Source of the DNA: Porphyrobacter sp. CACIAM 03H1
GTDB taxonomy: Bacteria > Pseudomonadota > Alphaproteobacteria > Sphingomonadales > Sphingomonadaceae
DNA length: 64,000 nucleotides
Direction: 5' to 3'
NCBI RefSeq assembly: GCF_002215495.1
Contig: NZ_CP021378.1
Location: 580,417 to 644,416 of the forward strand
In this document: positions 24,894 through 29,363 of the stretch, one piece after another
Layout: every line of letters begins with the position of its first letter
How positions within the stretch are numbered: the stretch's first letter is position 1
Program-made: the position numbers and the translations under genes
The notes under the pieces: model-generated
Database searches by the model: none
Told to the model about the DNA's origin: nothing
What the model saw: the letters and a program-made list of their open reading frames with translations, nothing else

Positions 24894-26486
24894 TCACTCC
24901 CATTCGATGGTCCCGGGCGGCTTGCTGGTATAGTCGTAGACCACCCGGTTGATGCCCTTGACCTCGTTGACGATGCGCGTCGCGACGCGGGTGAGGAACC
25001 CGGCGTCGTAGGGGTAGACGTCCGCCGTCATTCCGTCGGTCGAGGTCACAGCGCGCAGGGCGCAGACGGAATCGTAGGTCCGCCCGTCACCCATCACGCC
25101 CACGGTCTTGACCGGCAGCAGCACCGCGAAGGCCTGCCAGATCGCGTCGTAGAGGCCCGCGTTGCGGATCTCCTCGAGATAAATCGCGTCGGCCTTCCTG
25201 AGGATGTCGCAGCGCTCCTTGGTGACCTCGCCAGGAATGCGGATCGCGAGGCCAGGGCCGGGGAAGGGGTGGCGGCCGACGAAGGCGTCGGGCAGGCCCA
25301 GTTCGCGGCCGAGATCGCGGACCTCGTCCTTGAACAGCTCGCGCAGCGGCTCGACCAGCGCCATGTTCATGCGTTCCGGCAGGCCGCCGACATTGTGGTG
25401 GCTCTTGATCGTCACCGAGGGCCCGCCGGTGAAGGACACCGATTCGATCACGTCGGGATAGAGCGTGCCCTGCGCGAGGAAATCCGCGCCGCCGATCTTC
25501 TTGGCCTCGGCCTCGAACACGTCGATGAAGGTCTTGCCGATGAACTTGCGCTTGGCCTCGGGGTCGGTGAGGCCCTTGAGGCCCCCGAGGAACAGCTCCT
25601 CGGCCTCCACGTGAACGAGCGGGATGTTGTAGTGGTTCTTGAACAGGCTGACGACCTGCTCGGCCTCGCCCAGCCGCATCAGTCCGTGGTCGACGAAGAC
25701 GCAGGTCAGCTGGTCGCCGATCGCCTCGTGGATCAGCACCGCGGCGACGGCGGAATCGACGCCGCCCGAAAGGCCGCAGATCACCCGCTTGTCGCCCACC
25801 TGCTGGCGGATCTCGGCGATCTTGGTCTGGCGGAACTCGGCCATCGTCCAGTCGCCCGCAAGGCCGCAGACATGGCGCACGAAGTTGGCGATCAGACGCG
25901 CGCCGTCGGGGGTGTGGACCACCTCGGGGTGGAACTGCGTGCCGTAGAACCTGCGCGCCTCGTCGGCGATCACCGCGAAGGGCGCGCCGTCGGAGGTGGC
26001 GACGATCTCGAAACCCTCGGCGAACTGCGTCACCTTGTCGCCGTGGCTCATCCACACCTGGTGCCGCTCGCCGACTTCCCAGAGGCCGTTGAACAGGGTG
26101 CATTCGGCGGTGACGGTCAGGAAGGCGCGTCCGAACTCGCCGCCCTCTCCGGTCTCGTGCCCGGGGCGGACCTCGCCGCCCAGCTGGTGGGTCATCACCT
26201 GCTGGCCGTAGCAGATGCCGAGGATCGGCACCCCGGCCTCGAACAGCATCTGCGGCGCGCGCGGGGAGCCCTCCTCAGGCACGCTGGCGGGCGAGCCGGA
26301 AAGGATGATGCCCTTGGGCTTCAGGCGGGCGAAGGCGGCCTCGGCCTGGGTGAAGGGCGCGATCTCGGAATAGACCCCCGCCTCGCGCACGCGGCGCGCG
26401 ATCAGCTGGGTCACCTGCGACCCGAAGTCGACGATCAGGATGGAATCGGGGACAGCGGACTCGCCGCTCGATCGGTGCGCGCTCAT
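24894..26486 (-). CDS. guaA: GMP synthase (glutamine-hydrolysing)
   Basis: GuaA converts XMP to GMP with glutamine and ATP, last step of guanine nucleotide synthesis. The N-terminal glutamine amidotransferase has the nucleophile Cys92 in GICYGQQ, with His and Glu in the later FHPE region. The synthetase P-loop is [10 protein letters not shown], and the dimerisation domain ends GTIEWE, as usual. 530 residues is standard. Start [12 protein letters not shown] is only about ten residues longer than typical. guaB is not in the window. Confidence 0.97.
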
Positions 26487-26546
26487 GGCGGCGGATTAAG
26501 GAGCGCGCCCCCGCCTGTCCAGCATCGCCGCACCGCCAGCGCGTGA

Positions 26547-26566
26547 TTTTGCGGTGCAGCGCAAAA
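26547..26566. promoter_or_regulatory. Inverted repeat between guaA and UrcA gene
   Basis: TTTTGCG (26547-26553) and CGCAAAA (26560-26566) are perfect inverted copies with a six-base spacer. The site lies 61 bases from the guaA start and about 190 from the UrcA gene; it looks like an operator, but no regulator is suggested by sequence. Confidence 0.35.
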
Positions 26567-26651
26567 CAGCCGCAGGAATTTCATGGGGTTCCCGGAAATC
26601 CGCCGCAAAAACGTTGCATTCTTTGGAACCATCCTGCCGCATTTCGCATTT

Positions 26652-26668
26652 GCACAAGTCTCTTGTGC
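26652..26668. promoter_or_regulatory. Perfect inverted repeat upstream of UrcA gene
   Basis: GCACAAG (26652-26658), TCT, CTTGTGC (26662-26668). The 17-base site sits 89 bases upstream of the UrcA start. It resembles a dyad operator for a dimeric regulator. Confidence 0.4.
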
Positions 26669-26757
26669 GCTGCACCAGAGTTTCAAACAGCAACCGAATG
26701 CCGGTCAACGGCATCGCTTCTCCCGAAACCCTCTCTCAACCTTTCGGAGTATCCACC

Positions 26758-27078
26758 ATGCGTTTCACTCTCCCGCTGATTGCCCTCGCCGCTCTCGCCG
26801 CCCCCGCGCTGGCTGCGCCCGCCGAGGAAGTCGTGACCGTCCGCATCGCCTATGGCGACGTCGACGTGACCACCGCCGAAGGCCGCGCCGCGCTCGAGAC
26901 CCGCATCGCCGCCCAGCTGCGCAAGGCCTGCACCGTCGAAGCCGCTTCGCGCTACAGCTACGGCCGCCCCGCGGTTGACGCCAAGTGCGTCGCCGAAGCC
27001 CGCACCGCGGCGCTCGCCGAAGTCGACCGGGTCGTGGCCATGCAGGGCCGCAGCAGCGGGACCGTCGCCGCCAACTGA
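26758..27078 (+). CDS. UrcA family exported protein
   Basis: A 106-residue secreted protein. The signal peptide is MRFTLPLIALAALAAPALA. The mature part has VRIAYGDVDVTTAEGRAALETRI and two cysteines (LRKACTVEA and DAKCVAEAR), the conserved pair of the UrcA family, common in sphingomonads and caulobacters. ATG 26758 is the start of the signal peptide; the frame upstream is not coding-like. Function of the family is unknown. A terminator follows at 27099. Confidence 0.85.
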   Translation: MRFTLPLIALAALAAPALAAPAEEVVTVRIAYGDVDVTTAEGRAALETRIAAQLRKACTVEAASRYSYGRPAVDAKCVAEARTAALAEVDRVVAMQGRSSGTVAAN

Positions 27079-27098
27079 GCGCAAGCTCTTGTAATTGA

Positions 27099-27128
27099 AG
27101 CGGCCGCCGGAGCGATCCGGCGGCCGCT
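27099..27128 (+). terminator. Hairpin terminator after UrcA gene
   Basis: Arms 27099-27111 and 27116-27128 are perfect 13-base inverted copies (AGCGGCCGCCGGA and its complement) around the loop GCGA, followed by TTGCG. The short T-run makes strict rho-independence uncertain. Confidence 0.65.
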
Positions 27129-27151
27129 TTGCGTCCGACACATGATTAATT

Positions 27152-27192
27152 GTTGCATTTTAAGCAACTCAAATTGGTGTTTTCGCATTTGA
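27152..27192. promoter_or_regulatory. AT-rich segment with small inverted repeats
   Basis: In an AT-rich stretch unlike the rest of the window, GTTGC (27152-27156) pairs with GCAAC (27164-27168), and TCAAAT (27169-27174) with ATTTGA (27187-27192). It lies before the C-loop hairpins and may contain their promoter. Confidence 0.3.
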
Positions 27193-27337
27193 ATTGTGCG
27201 CTTGCGAACACCACTTGCCGCCCAAGCGATGCAGCGCGGGGCCTCCTCTCCAACCCCGCCGTCAGTCCGCAAGGATGCATTGCCCGGTAATCGAGGCCGA
27301 ATGCGGCCCCATTGCCCGCCTGCCGGACGGCAGGACC

Positions 27338-27363
27338 GCCTGGCTCTCCCCCCCTCGCCAGGT
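27338..27363 (+). ncRNA. C-loop hairpin 1 (candidate small RNA element)
   Basis: GCCTGGC (27338-27344) pairs with GCCAGGT (27357-27363), using one G-U pair, around the 12-base loop TCTCCCCCCCTC. First of three hairpins that expose a C-tract in this 569-base space. Strand and transcription are inferred only from the C-rich loop. Confidence 0.35.
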
Positions 27364-27411
27364 CGTCGTGATCCGTCATTGCCCGGCGCTTGCGCCAGGC
27401 CCGCAGCGAAA

Positions 27412-27458
27412 GAGACGCGGCCGCCAACCTCCCCCCCCTGAACAGGCGGCCGCGTCTC
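27412..27458 (+). ncRNA. C-loop hairpin 2 (candidate small RNA element)
   Basis: Perfect 14-base arms (27412-27425 and 27445-27458) enclose the 19-base loop AACCTCCCCCCCCTGAACA. The CCTCC in the loop is complementary to a Shine-Dalgarno core. Strongest of the three hairpins. Confidence 0.45.
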
Positions 27459-27517
27459 GAGCCGCAGCCTGCTGGGATGCCTCCCGATATCGCCTTTTTC
27501 GATTGCGCTGATGAATT

Positions 27518-27545
27518 ATTTTCAATCGAAACAGAGATTGAAAAT
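27518..27545. promoter_or_regulatory. AT-rich palindrome before C-loop hairpin 3
   Basis: ATTTTCAATC (27518-27527) and GATTGAAAAT (27536-27545) are perfect 10-base inverted copies around an eight-base spacer. The low GC and symmetry suggest an operator or promoter site for the small peptide transcript at 27648. Confidence 0.4.
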
Positions 27546-27573
27546 TGCGCGCACCTGAATATATGCTGCTCTG

Positions 27574-27615
27574 GCCCGGGCAATCCCCTCTCTCCCCCCC
27601 TTGGGTTGCCCGGGC
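27574..27615 (+). ncRNA. C-loop hairpin 3, in leader of the 27-residue peptide
   Basis: GCCCGGGCAA (27574-27583) pairs perfectly with TTGCCCGGGC (27606-27615). The 22-base loop contains CCCCTCTCTCCCCCCC, another exposed C-tract. It lies 32 bases upstream of the start codon at 27648, so it probably forms part of that gene's leader. Confidence 0.45.
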
Positions 27616-27647
27616 TCCCAACCACAACAAAACAGGGAACCAGAACC

Positions 27648-27731
27648 ATGCGCATGATCAGCGAAAAGGCCGTCGCCTTCCTGCTCGCCGTTGTCGTCAG
27701 CGGCACCGCGTTCAACACCTTCATCGTGTAA
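27648..27731 (+). CDS. 27-residue hydrophobic peptide
   Basis: Translation gives MRMISEKAVAFLLAVVVSG followed by TAFNTFIV: a short basic/polar start and one hydrophobic helix, fitting a single-pass membrane peptide. CAGGGAA lies 11 bases before ATG 27648. Peptides with the same opening, M-x-x-ISEKA-x-AF, are to my knowledge found in other sphingomonads, often unannotated; I cannot verify this here. A strong hairpin follows at 27762. Function unknown; it might act as leader peptide or a membrane regulator. Confidence 0.55.
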   Translation: MRMISEKAVAFLLAVVVSGTAFNTFIV

Positions 27732-27761
27732 CGATCGCCCGAGCGGAGCGACAGCTTCCGG

Positions 27762-27793
27762 CGGCCCGGTTCCTCGCCAGAGGAGCCGGGCCG
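27762..27793 (+). terminator. Hairpin after the 27-residue peptide gene
   Basis: Fourteen-base arms (27762-27775 and 27780-27793), with one G-U pair, enclose the loop GCCA. No T-run follows. It lies between the peptide gene and a convergent acyl-CoA ligase gene and could terminate both. Confidence 0.55.
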
Positions 27794-27812
27794 TGCCGTA
27801 TCCGGGGACCTG

Positions 27813-29363
27813 TCAGTCGATCCCGCCGAGCCGCTCCGCCTCGGCGCGCAGATCGGTCTTGAGCAGCTTGCCGATGTGGCTGCGCGGCATTTCGGCAATC
27901 GGATGAAGCGCAGCGAGGCGCTGGGTCTTGCCGAGCCGGGCGTTGACGGCCGCGAGGATGGCCGCGGTGTCCCCGCCCTCGCGCAGCACCACGAAGCCCA
28001 CTGGTGTTTCGCCCCAGGCGCGCGAGGGCACGCCGACGACCGCGGCCTCGACCACGCCCGGCTCCTTCGCCAGTTCGGCCTCTAGATCGCTGGGGTAGAT
28101 GTTGAACCCGCCCGAAATGATCATGTCCTTGGCGCGGCCGACCAGTTCGACGAAGCCTTCCGCGTCCACCCGCCCGATGTCGCCCATCCGCATCCACACC
28201 TCGCCGGTCGCGGGGTCGGTCCACTGGGCCTCGGCGGTCTTTTCGGGGCGGTTCTTGTAGCCGCTCATCATGGTGAGGCTGCGGCCCACGAGATTGCCCG
28301 GGGTGCCGGGCGGCACCTCGCGGTCCTCGTCGTCGAGCACCTTGAGCTCGCTCCCCGGCGCGGGGCGGCCCACCGTGTGGAGCTTGTCGGGGAATTCGTG
28401 GCACGCCAGCAGGCACACGACGCCGCCTTCGGTCATCGAATAGATCTCGATCAGCCCGCCGGGCATCCGCCGCAGCACCTCGCGCTTGAGGTCTGCCGAG
28501 AAGGGCGCGGAGGTGCAGTATTTGAGCTTCAGGCTGGACAGATCGAACTCGTCGAAGCCGGCAAAGTCCATCAGCCGCTGGTATTGCACCGGAACGAGCA
28601 TGGTGATGGTGGTGCGGTCCGCCTCGGCGTGCGCCAGCCACTTCGCGCAATCGAACTTGCCCATCACCCGCACGCAGCCCCCCGCCAGCAGAACGGGCAG
28701 GAAGGCGACCATCGTGGTGTTCGAATAGAGCGGCGTCGAGGCGAGCGAGCGCACCTCCAGCCCCGCGCCGAGGTAACTCAGGGCGGTCGCCGCGAATTGC
28801 CGCCAGCGCATCTGGTGCGAGTGGACGATGCCCTTGGGAATGCCCGTGGTGCCGCTGGAATAGATGATGTTGAAGGGGTCTTTCGGCTCCGGCGCGAACT
28901 CCGGCGCGCGGCTGCCCGGAGGGGCCATCCACTGGTCGATGCTCCCGAGCGGCACCCGGATCAGGTGGGCCATGAAGTCTGGCCCCAGCTCCGCCGCCTT
29001 GGCCGCGTCGATGAACAGGTGGATCGCGCCCGAATCCCTCGCCATGCCTTCGAGCTGCTCGGGCGAGGCGCTGGTGGTGAGCGGCGCGGCGACGCCGCCC
29101 GCGCGCACGGCGGCAAGGAACACCAGCGCGTATTCCACGGTGGAGGTGCCGAGGATCGCCACCGATTGCCCACGCTGGAGCCCCGTCTCCACCAGCCGCG
29201 CCGCCAGCCGCTCGACCAGCCCGACCAGCTCGGCCCAGTAGACCTCGCGCCTGTCGTCCCTCAGGGCGAGATCGTCGCCCTTGATGCGCGACCATTCCAT
29301 CAGGATCTCGGGGAAGCTGCCGAAAGGTTCGGCAAGGCGGGCCATCATCGCATCGTTGCTCAT
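27813..29363 (-). CDS. AMP-dependent acyl-CoA ligase
   Basis: A 516-residue ANL-superfamily ligase that forms acyl-CoA through an adenylate. Its P-loop motif is IIYSSGTTGIPKG, followed by the GDIGRVDAEGFVELVGRAKDMI region and ISGGFNIYPSDLE, with a C-terminal HIGKLLKTDLR lysine motif. ATG 29363 (MSNDAMMARLAEP) is preferred; ATG 29372 is possible. Substrate unknown; sequence style resembles fatty- or aromatic-acid ligases. It lies divergent from the PIG-L gene. Confidence 0.88.
   Translation of the reverse strand: MSNDAMMARLAEPFGSFPEILMEWSRIKGDDLALRDDRREVYWAELVGLVERLAARLVETGLQRGQSVAILGTSTVEYALVFLAAVRAGGVAAPLTTSASPEQLEGMARDSGAIHLFIDAAKAAELGPDFMAHLIRVPLGSIDQWMAPPGSRAPEFAPEPKDPFNIIYSSGTTGIPKGIVHSHQMRWRQFAATALSYLGAGLEVRSLASTPLYSNTTMVAFLPVLLAGGCVRVMGKFDCAKWLAHAEADRTTITMLVPVQYQRLMDFAGFDEFDLSSLKLKYCTSAPFSADLKREVLRRMPGGLIEIYSMTEGGVVCLLACHEFPDKLHTVGRPAPGSELKVLDDEDREVPPGTPGNLVGRSLTMMSGYKNRPEKTAEAQWTDPATGEVWMRMGDIGRVDAEGFVELVGRAKDMIISGGFNIYPSDLEAELAKEPGVVEAAVVGVPSRAWGETPVGFVVLREGGDTAAILAAVNARLGKTQRLAALHPIAEMPRSHIGKLLKTDLRAEAERLGGID

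Follow-up and report, generated by a model that had tools for sequence, protein, structure and literature searches.

An array of hairpins with C/U-rich loops, located in the window (the whole 64,000-nucleotide stretch of DNA analysed here), probably represents a new anti-Shine-Dalgarno-type regulatory RNA family of the Erythrobacteraceae, which would share a small regulon with the suhB/MmgR RNA and urcA and would be followed by a separate downstream peptide unit. In the most likely reading it is a small RNA (sRNA) with several anti-Shine-Dalgarno loops, analogous to CcsR and not of the CcsR-DUF1127 locus type. By analogy with characterized RNAs it probably controls the translation of other genes. 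An earlier sequence-only reading had proposed an RNA array next to a membrane peptide, and the comparative data bear it out in part, supporting a conserved array with C/U loops beside a conserved small membrane peptide.

The gene order around the locus is guaA (minus strand), an urcA-family gene (plus strand), the hairpins and peptide, an AMP-binding CoA ligase gene (minus strand) and a gene for a PIG-L domain protein (plus strand), beyond which a further ORF was read by eye as gyrB. The urcA-family gene (26758..27078, plus strand; TIGR04433, 53.6 bits against a cut-off of 25) is the neighbour of the array and its probable co-regulated partner. Three hairpins in series with C runs of 7, 8 and 7 had been described, and sequence and folds agree: the runs start at 27348, 27431 and 27594, in hairpin 1 (27338..27363; -18 kcal/mol, z -3.1), hairpin 2 (27412..27458; 14 perfect pairs around a 19-nt loop; -35 kcal/mol, z -5.7) and hairpin 3 (27573..27616; -27.5 kcal/mol, z -3.8), all on the plus strand. 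The proposed stem lengths of 7, 14 and 10 hold for the 14 pairs of hairpin 2, while hairpin 3 has 14 pairs and not 10. The series is real, and its description had missed a fourth C/U-loop hairpin upstream of the others, hairpin 0 (27236..27259, plus strand), a predicted fold with the CU loop CCTCCTCTCCAA (loop sequence CCTCCTCTCC). When 27131-27650 was folded as one RNA, hairpins 0-3 were all kept with their loops open. Half of the six plus-strand runs of at least seven C in the window lie within 253 bases. A first-order model predicts 7.6 runs of this kind per strand, so it is their clustering that is unusual and not their total number.

Outside the hairpins, an AT-rich block that separates hairpin 2 from the peptide promoter (27480-27545; GATTGCCTTTTTCGATTGCGGTGATGAATTATTTTCAGTC in many relatives) is strongly conserved and may be either a 3' end or another operator. 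The AT-rich sequence at 27145-27225, which surrounds the promoter box and also contains the promoter signature described below, can form a stem of GGTGTTTTCGC with GCGAACACC, similar to stems seen by eye in many relatives. A very GC-rich palindrome 3' of urcA (27098-27130) has matches elsewhere in this and related genomes and may be a member of a repeat family. A scan of 26400-28000 gave no canonical intrinsic terminator, and hairpin 2 has no U-run.

At E<=0.001, 71 of 100 same-genus genomes gave a match to 27100-27800; this is an upper figure, as some of them match only the GC-rich palindrome after urcA. From these matches 67 loci were taken, and 64 hold hairpin 2 with a pyrimidine loop; two of the others stop at contig ends (L028, L067) and the third (L015) has a hairpin with a run of 21 C. 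In a closer alignment of 34 loci, scored automatically for stems of at least 6 bp, hairpin 0 was present in 27, hairpin 1 in 22, hairpin 3 in 29 and hairpin 2, by which the loci had been chosen, in all 34. Hairpin 1 is the least conserved stem, hairpin 0 keeps its CU loop on a variable stem, and hairpin 2 forms the core of the RNA family.

Covariation was computed formally for hairpins 2 and 3. The sequence-only reading had set the lack of compensatory base changes in related genomes as grounds for refutation, and such changes were found in both hairpins. Standard pairs account for 99.2% of the 14-pair stem cells of hairpin 2 in 64 rows, and 83.5% of the cells of hairpin 3 are paired in 34 rows. 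Changes on both sides occur in four pairs of hairpin 2 (12 such cells, 2.8 in shuffles) and in 11 of the 14 pairs of hairpin 3 (51 cells, 19.6 in shuffles), excesses to be read with the caveat that kinship alone can beat shuffles without structure. Sliding the partner strand by one to three columns lowered pairing from 99.2% to at most 58% for hairpin 2 and from 83.5% to at most 49% for hairpin 3. The stem of hairpin 2 also reports the strand: where its cells depart from Watson-Crick pairing, 18 are G.U in the plus sense and 4 are A.C, indicating that the strand with the C loops is the RNA and ruling out an RNA from the minus strand.

A covariance search of sphingomonad genomes, suggested at the outset, delimited the family. 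The hairpin 2 model (R1) matched 85 of 396 genomes of the order, in 11 of 84 genera, and three of 289 genomes in a search of the class (the genome of the window, one of the same genus and one of another family). Thirty hits from both searches were inspected and five weak ones were judged false by eye (G449, G217, G385, G259, G508), including the only hit from outside the family; the promoter box described below was absent from all five. What is left after inspection is eight genera of one family. The five were dropped before later counts (93 to 88 loci), and counts out of 87 omit one locus with short upstream sequence. Among same-genus genomes in the order search, 37 matched, the window's own included, and four did not; in one of these four (G027) the peptide is still present, along with degenerate C-loop hairpins. 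Scanning named genomes with a pattern yielded 44 records, including Erythrobacter, Porphyrobacter, Altererythrobacter, Pelagerythrobacter and Qipengyuania, together with several bins whose names stop at family, order or class level. Hairpin 2 occurs, for instance, in E. longus DSM 6997. A bin labelled Rubrivivax (L154) carries an Erythrobacter-type hairpin, probably on a misbinned stray contig. Many members of the Erythrobacter group are aerobic anoxygenic phototrophs.

The loops are conserved as C tracts. The sequence-only reading would also have been refuted by C tracts not kept in the loops, but the loop of hairpin 2 contains at least five consecutive C in 86 of 88 loci, with variable tract length. 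The exceptions are two same-genus loci (L122, L123), which have lost the tract and kept the promoter box and the upstream C-rich hairpins. C-rich pyrimidine tracts, defined as at least 8 nt with at least 6 C and counted in 63 loci, reach 6.7 per kb on the plus strand around hairpin 2, compared with 0.86 per kb for the rest of the plus strand and 0.42 per kb on the minus strand. Stems enclose 153 of the 207 tracts of the locus, against 182 of 1035 with shuffled flanks, 12 of 105 elsewhere and 9 of 65 on the minus strand. As loci had been picked by hairpin 2, the count was repeated without its own tract, giving 93 of 146 against 114 of 730 with shuffled flanks. On the enrichment and enclosure counts, chance or decay was rejected as the origin of the C runs.

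The motif CCTCTCCC occurs in 46 of 88 loci, at 1.30 per kb against 0.04 per kb elsewhere, and in the suhB/MmgR copies of these genomes it is placed between two stems; it is the more telling motif. The array loops of the window contain CTCTCCC (27344 and 27590) and CCTCTCC (27245) and lack the full CCTCTCCC. CCTCC is found somewhere in 80 of 87 loci.

The array is preceded by a rigid promoter/operator signature, TTGC-N7-GCAA-N12-TTTTCGCATTTG (27153..27191, plus strand, no mismatches). The box, loosely written TTTTCKCATTTG, stands upstream of hairpin 0 in 75 of 87 loci. In 69 of the 87 a 15-bp TTGC-N7-GCAA palindrome lies exactly 12 bases before it, other lengths and gaps having been permitted and none having occurred; the exact signature is missing in 18. 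Within the window's own genome the full signature at up to three mismatches has three matches: the array, urcA and a third site 328 kb away (three mismatches); a reversed control gave none. The copy before urcA, TTGC-N7-GGAA-N12-ATTTCGCATTTG (26614..26652, plus strand), has two mismatches and the same spacing. This common signature makes co-regulation of urcA and the array probable. In L108 and L129, both sister-genus loci, a gene for an UrcA-like protein instead seems, by eye, to sit downstream of the array.

Across 41 genomes of the genus, 38 have matches to the signature at up to two mismatches, with a single reversed-control match in all. A subset of these matches, 24 sites of the third type, was examined: the Rfam model RF00519 (suhB/MmgR) passed its gathering score in four of four and in 17 of 20, and the remaining three have the same sequence by eye. 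These sites lead into a short RNA with a terminator, whose first stem begins 32 to 34 nt behind the box (13 measurable among 22 displayed). In the window's own genome (C1:279738 onward; L199, 1501-1640) the suhB/MmgR sRNA under the signature lies upstream of a gene named by eye as a Cdc48/VCP-type AAA ATPase. There the Rfam match starts 26 nt past the end of the signature (1565 against 1539 in L199), and the same offset applied to the array puts the predicted start of its RNA at approximately 27217 on the plus strand. The array and suhB RNAs both carry a CCUCUCCC core in many genomes. MmgR and SisA are described as established Hfq-dependent sRNAs with an anti-Shine-Dalgarno core (PMC7143759, PMC12559287), and the common signature means that the array shares its promoter signature with this class.

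In our own reading of the sequence, the -10 element of the array promoter in the window's group does not appear sigma-70-like. Sites of the form GGAAC-N15-18-CGTT, modelled on GGAAC-N-CGTT, which we take to be the general stress (EcfG) consensus, occur in none of the 87 loci, and a general stress promoter was rejected for the array. The TTGC-N7-GCAA palindrome was considered as a possible Fur, Mur or PhaR site. The Caulobacter UzcR site, given as CATTAC-N6-TTAA (PMC8963506), was also considered as the urcA regulator site and is, by eye, unlike the signature found here.

Downstream of hairpin 3 an ORF encodes the membrane peptide MRMISEKAVAFLLAVVVSGTAFNTFIV (27648..27731, plus strand; 27 residues, ATG at 27648, stop codon ending at 27731). 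A sequence scan placed a sigma-70-like promoter, TTGAAA-N18-TATGCT, at 27538..27567 on the plus strand, and from its TTGA to where hairpin 3 begins the relatives align with no gap. As this promoter-like sequence stands directly 5' of hairpin 3, co-transcription of the peptide with hairpins 0-2 is not required. The peptide mRNA probably begins with hairpin 3 as its 5'-terminal stem-loop. The peptide had also been credited with its own hairpin terminator: a strong hairpin is indeed present 3' of it (27759..27798, plus strand; z -6.0) and is a possible 3' end, but it has no U-run and is not a canonical terminator.

Of the 34 closely aligned loci, 33 encode the peptide or a near relative, the remaining one (L013) stopping at a contig end. 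The peptide's substitutions show purifying selection, with a pN/pS of 0.35 in its own frame and of 0.93 and 3.18 in the other two (33 sequences of 27 residues, a slightly different set from the 33 above). In a 23-row alignment of the family M1 and S18 are invariant and A10, A14 and I26 nearly so. Pfam and NCBIfam gave no match to the peptide, and a search for solved structures gave nothing. The window's own genome holds one clear copy and one weak second match (E 0.5); a peptide profile matched eight of 147 genomes of the order, one of these matches, weak and in another family, appearing false. Related peptides lie between hairpin 0 and hairpin 2, behind AGGAG, in six sister-genus loci (L101-L103, L111, L116 and L119; hairpin 0 of L101-L103 assigned by eye) and in one same-genus locus (L036). 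Two loci of another genus (L193, L194) have a related peptide near a CoA ligase gene or guaA without C-loop hairpins, suggesting that the peptide may predate the array; in L193 a TTGC-GCAA palindrome was seen by eye 5' of the peptide. Homology of such short peptides across genera is probable from position, length and pattern.

We propose that a regulator, as yet without a name, would act at the rigid signature at 27153-27191 and that RNA polymerase would initiate near 27217. The array RNA would fold into hairpins 0, 1 and 2, leaving the pyrimidine tracts CCUCCUCUCC, CUCUCCCCCCC and CCUCCCCCCCC open in the loops, and these may base-pair with other mRNAs at G-rich ribosome-binding sites or leaders, mostly reducing their translation. 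Pairing of C-loop or anti-Shine-Dalgarno motifs with ribosome sites or leaders is described for NfeR1, SisA and GsrN (PMC7143759, PMC12559287, PMC5869019). By the same analogy, exposed C/U loops would point to repression of other mRNAs, and the effect could instead be activation, as for GsrN on katG. The array would form one small regulon with the suhB/MmgR (alpha-r8) sRNA and urcA. The downstream unit would be transcribed from its own promoter into an mRNA that begins with the fourth C-loop hairpin and encodes the conserved 27-residue membrane peptide, and at some sister-genus loci the array RNA itself may carry the related peptide ORF.

The window's genome encodes Hfq, which we count in favour of an sRNA and which may assist the array RNA. 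At C1:2245857-2246282 two Hfq domain matches fall in one open frame, a tandem Hfq. Predicted pairing of the loops was computed for 43 ORFs of the window: for all four loops it was on average stronger with ribosome-binding sites than with coding DNA. Shuffled versions of these sites paired at least as well, and better in the case of loop 2, and the picking of starts was biased towards purine-rich sites, so that this crude test lends no specific support to such targets.

We consider it unlikely, though deserving of weight, that the hairpins act in cis, as 5' stem-loops or leaders that stabilize or tune the peptide mRNA, with the C/U loops pairing with the peptide ribosome site (CAGGAG/CAGGG) or binding a protein. 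Several sister-genus loci are ordered promoter, hairpin 0, AGGAG, peptide, hairpin 2, so that hairpin 0 directly precedes the peptide ribosome site, an arrangement that fits a cis-acting leader and that we count against a trans-acting RNA. In the window, the predicted start of the peptide mRNA coincides with that of hairpin 3, and loop 2 is predicted to form a 5-pair duplex with the CAGGG of the peptide site (-9.3 kcal/mol). However, hairpins 0-2 of the window's group contain no conserved ORF visible by eye and stand ahead of a separate promoter, the best conserved element is hairpin 2 although it does not lie at a ribosome site, and L193 and L194 keep a related peptide without any C-loop hairpins.

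It is distinctly improbable that the C-tract loops bind a protein, Rho (as rut-like sites) or another pyrimidine-binding protein, with a role in termination or as a protein sponge. The tracts do keep their C-richness while varying in length and order, as a loose binding site would, but Rho sites displayed in covarying stems are unusual, and the array shares the enriched core CCTCTCCC, along with the promoter signature, with suhB/MmgR, a known sRNA that acts by base pairing. Very little speaks for a type I toxin-antitoxin system, in which the peptide would be a small membrane toxin and the array its antitoxin RNA: the size and hydrophobicity of the peptide and the adjoining C-tract RNA would suit it, but a scan of the peptide ribosome site found no long complementarity (best duplex 5 pairs), the genome has one clear copy, and the peptide is conserved at residue level across the genus.

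Returning to the multi-loop sRNA that we prefer, a broader proposal can be made more tentatively: a one-core alpha-r8 sRNA, a multi-loop array and UrcA may be under one regulator reading TTGC-N7-GCAA-N12-TTTTCKCAYTTG, and the array and the new peptide family may constitute a dual-function RNA-peptide unit with an origin independent of CcsR/CcaF1, the peptide ORF lying inside the array RNA in some lineages and split off with its own promoter and C-loop hairpin in others.

Tandem anti-Shine-Dalgarno loops are a known kind of RNA element; the array has no Rfam 15 match and lacks two defining features of CcsR/CIN1. Rfam 15 gave no match at gathering score in the window and nine related loci. RF00519 had no window match at gathering score and was absent from matches up to E 5 in 26500-27850, and RF02345 (alpha-r15, AbcR) had no match in the window's own genome in a search that matched no control genome either. 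The best literature matches included no counterpart of CcsR or GsrN described for the Erythrobacter group, and among the best matches in open-licence papers none concerned such an RNA in Erythrobacteraceae.

One of the closest known parallels is CcsR1-4 with CcaF1 (CIN1 locus, cuckoo family, Rhodobacter; features as described in PMC10253847 and PMC3927594), which likewise combines tandem C/U-rich anti-Shine-Dalgarno-like loops with a small protein gene in the locus. The suggestion of a CcsR analogue survives as similar loop logic and not as membership: the loop motif of the array is variable and usually not CCUCCUCCC, the peptide is a membrane peptide of a different kind and the promoter signature differs. 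The CcsR/cuckoo type is also characterized by an RpoHI/RpoHII promoter and RNase E processing; the array loci have another conserved promoter signature. A DUF1127 partner gene was rejected on a search with PF06568, which found none in 61 genomes of the genus, the window's included, and matched one of 14 control genomes (E. coli). True membership of the CcsR/cuckoo (CIN1) family is hardly credible: tandem hairpins, anti-Shine-Dalgarno-like loops and a nearby small protein gene are shared, but the DUF1127 gene and a gathering-score Rfam match are lacking, the promoter signature is another, and exact CCTCCTCCC occurs in only five of 87 loci and is absent from the window's array.

Three further systems share features with the array. 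Alpha-r14 (NfeR1) of Rhizobiales is reported to have three hairpins with variable stems and an anti-Shine-Dalgarno motif unpaired in all loops (PMC7143759); the array resembles it in its three hairpins with the motif in the loops and differs in the strongly conserved stem of hairpin 2, loops that are C tracts, the associated peptide and another order. GsrN of Caulobacter pairs a C-rich loop with G-rich mRNA and activates katG (PMC5869019), and Erythrobacter litoralis has no apparent gsrN-like gene according to a figure legend in that paper. The array shares a C-rich loop with GsrN; unlike GsrN, which is under the general stress sigma factor, its loci are without GGAAC-N15-18-CGTT. With suhB/MmgR/SisA (alpha-r8, RF00519) the array has in common the promoter signature in these genomes and the pyrimidine core CCUCUCCC, but alpha-r8 copies are about 77 nt long, have a single unpaired core and end in a U-run terminator, whereas the array has three loops, no such terminator and no RF00519 match. 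UrcA, the remaining member of the putative regulon, belongs to a family with a metal response in Caulobacter (PMC8963506). For the Erythrobacter group the locus supplies a candidate C-loop RNA that may act globally, together with its predicted start, its promoter signature and a few putatively co-regulated genes. If the common promoter holds true, it would tie the UrcA family and a new RNA-peptide unit to MmgR/SisA, an sRNA family of carbon/nitrogen status, and would provide a direct handle on the regulator behind the sRNA, UrcA and the array.
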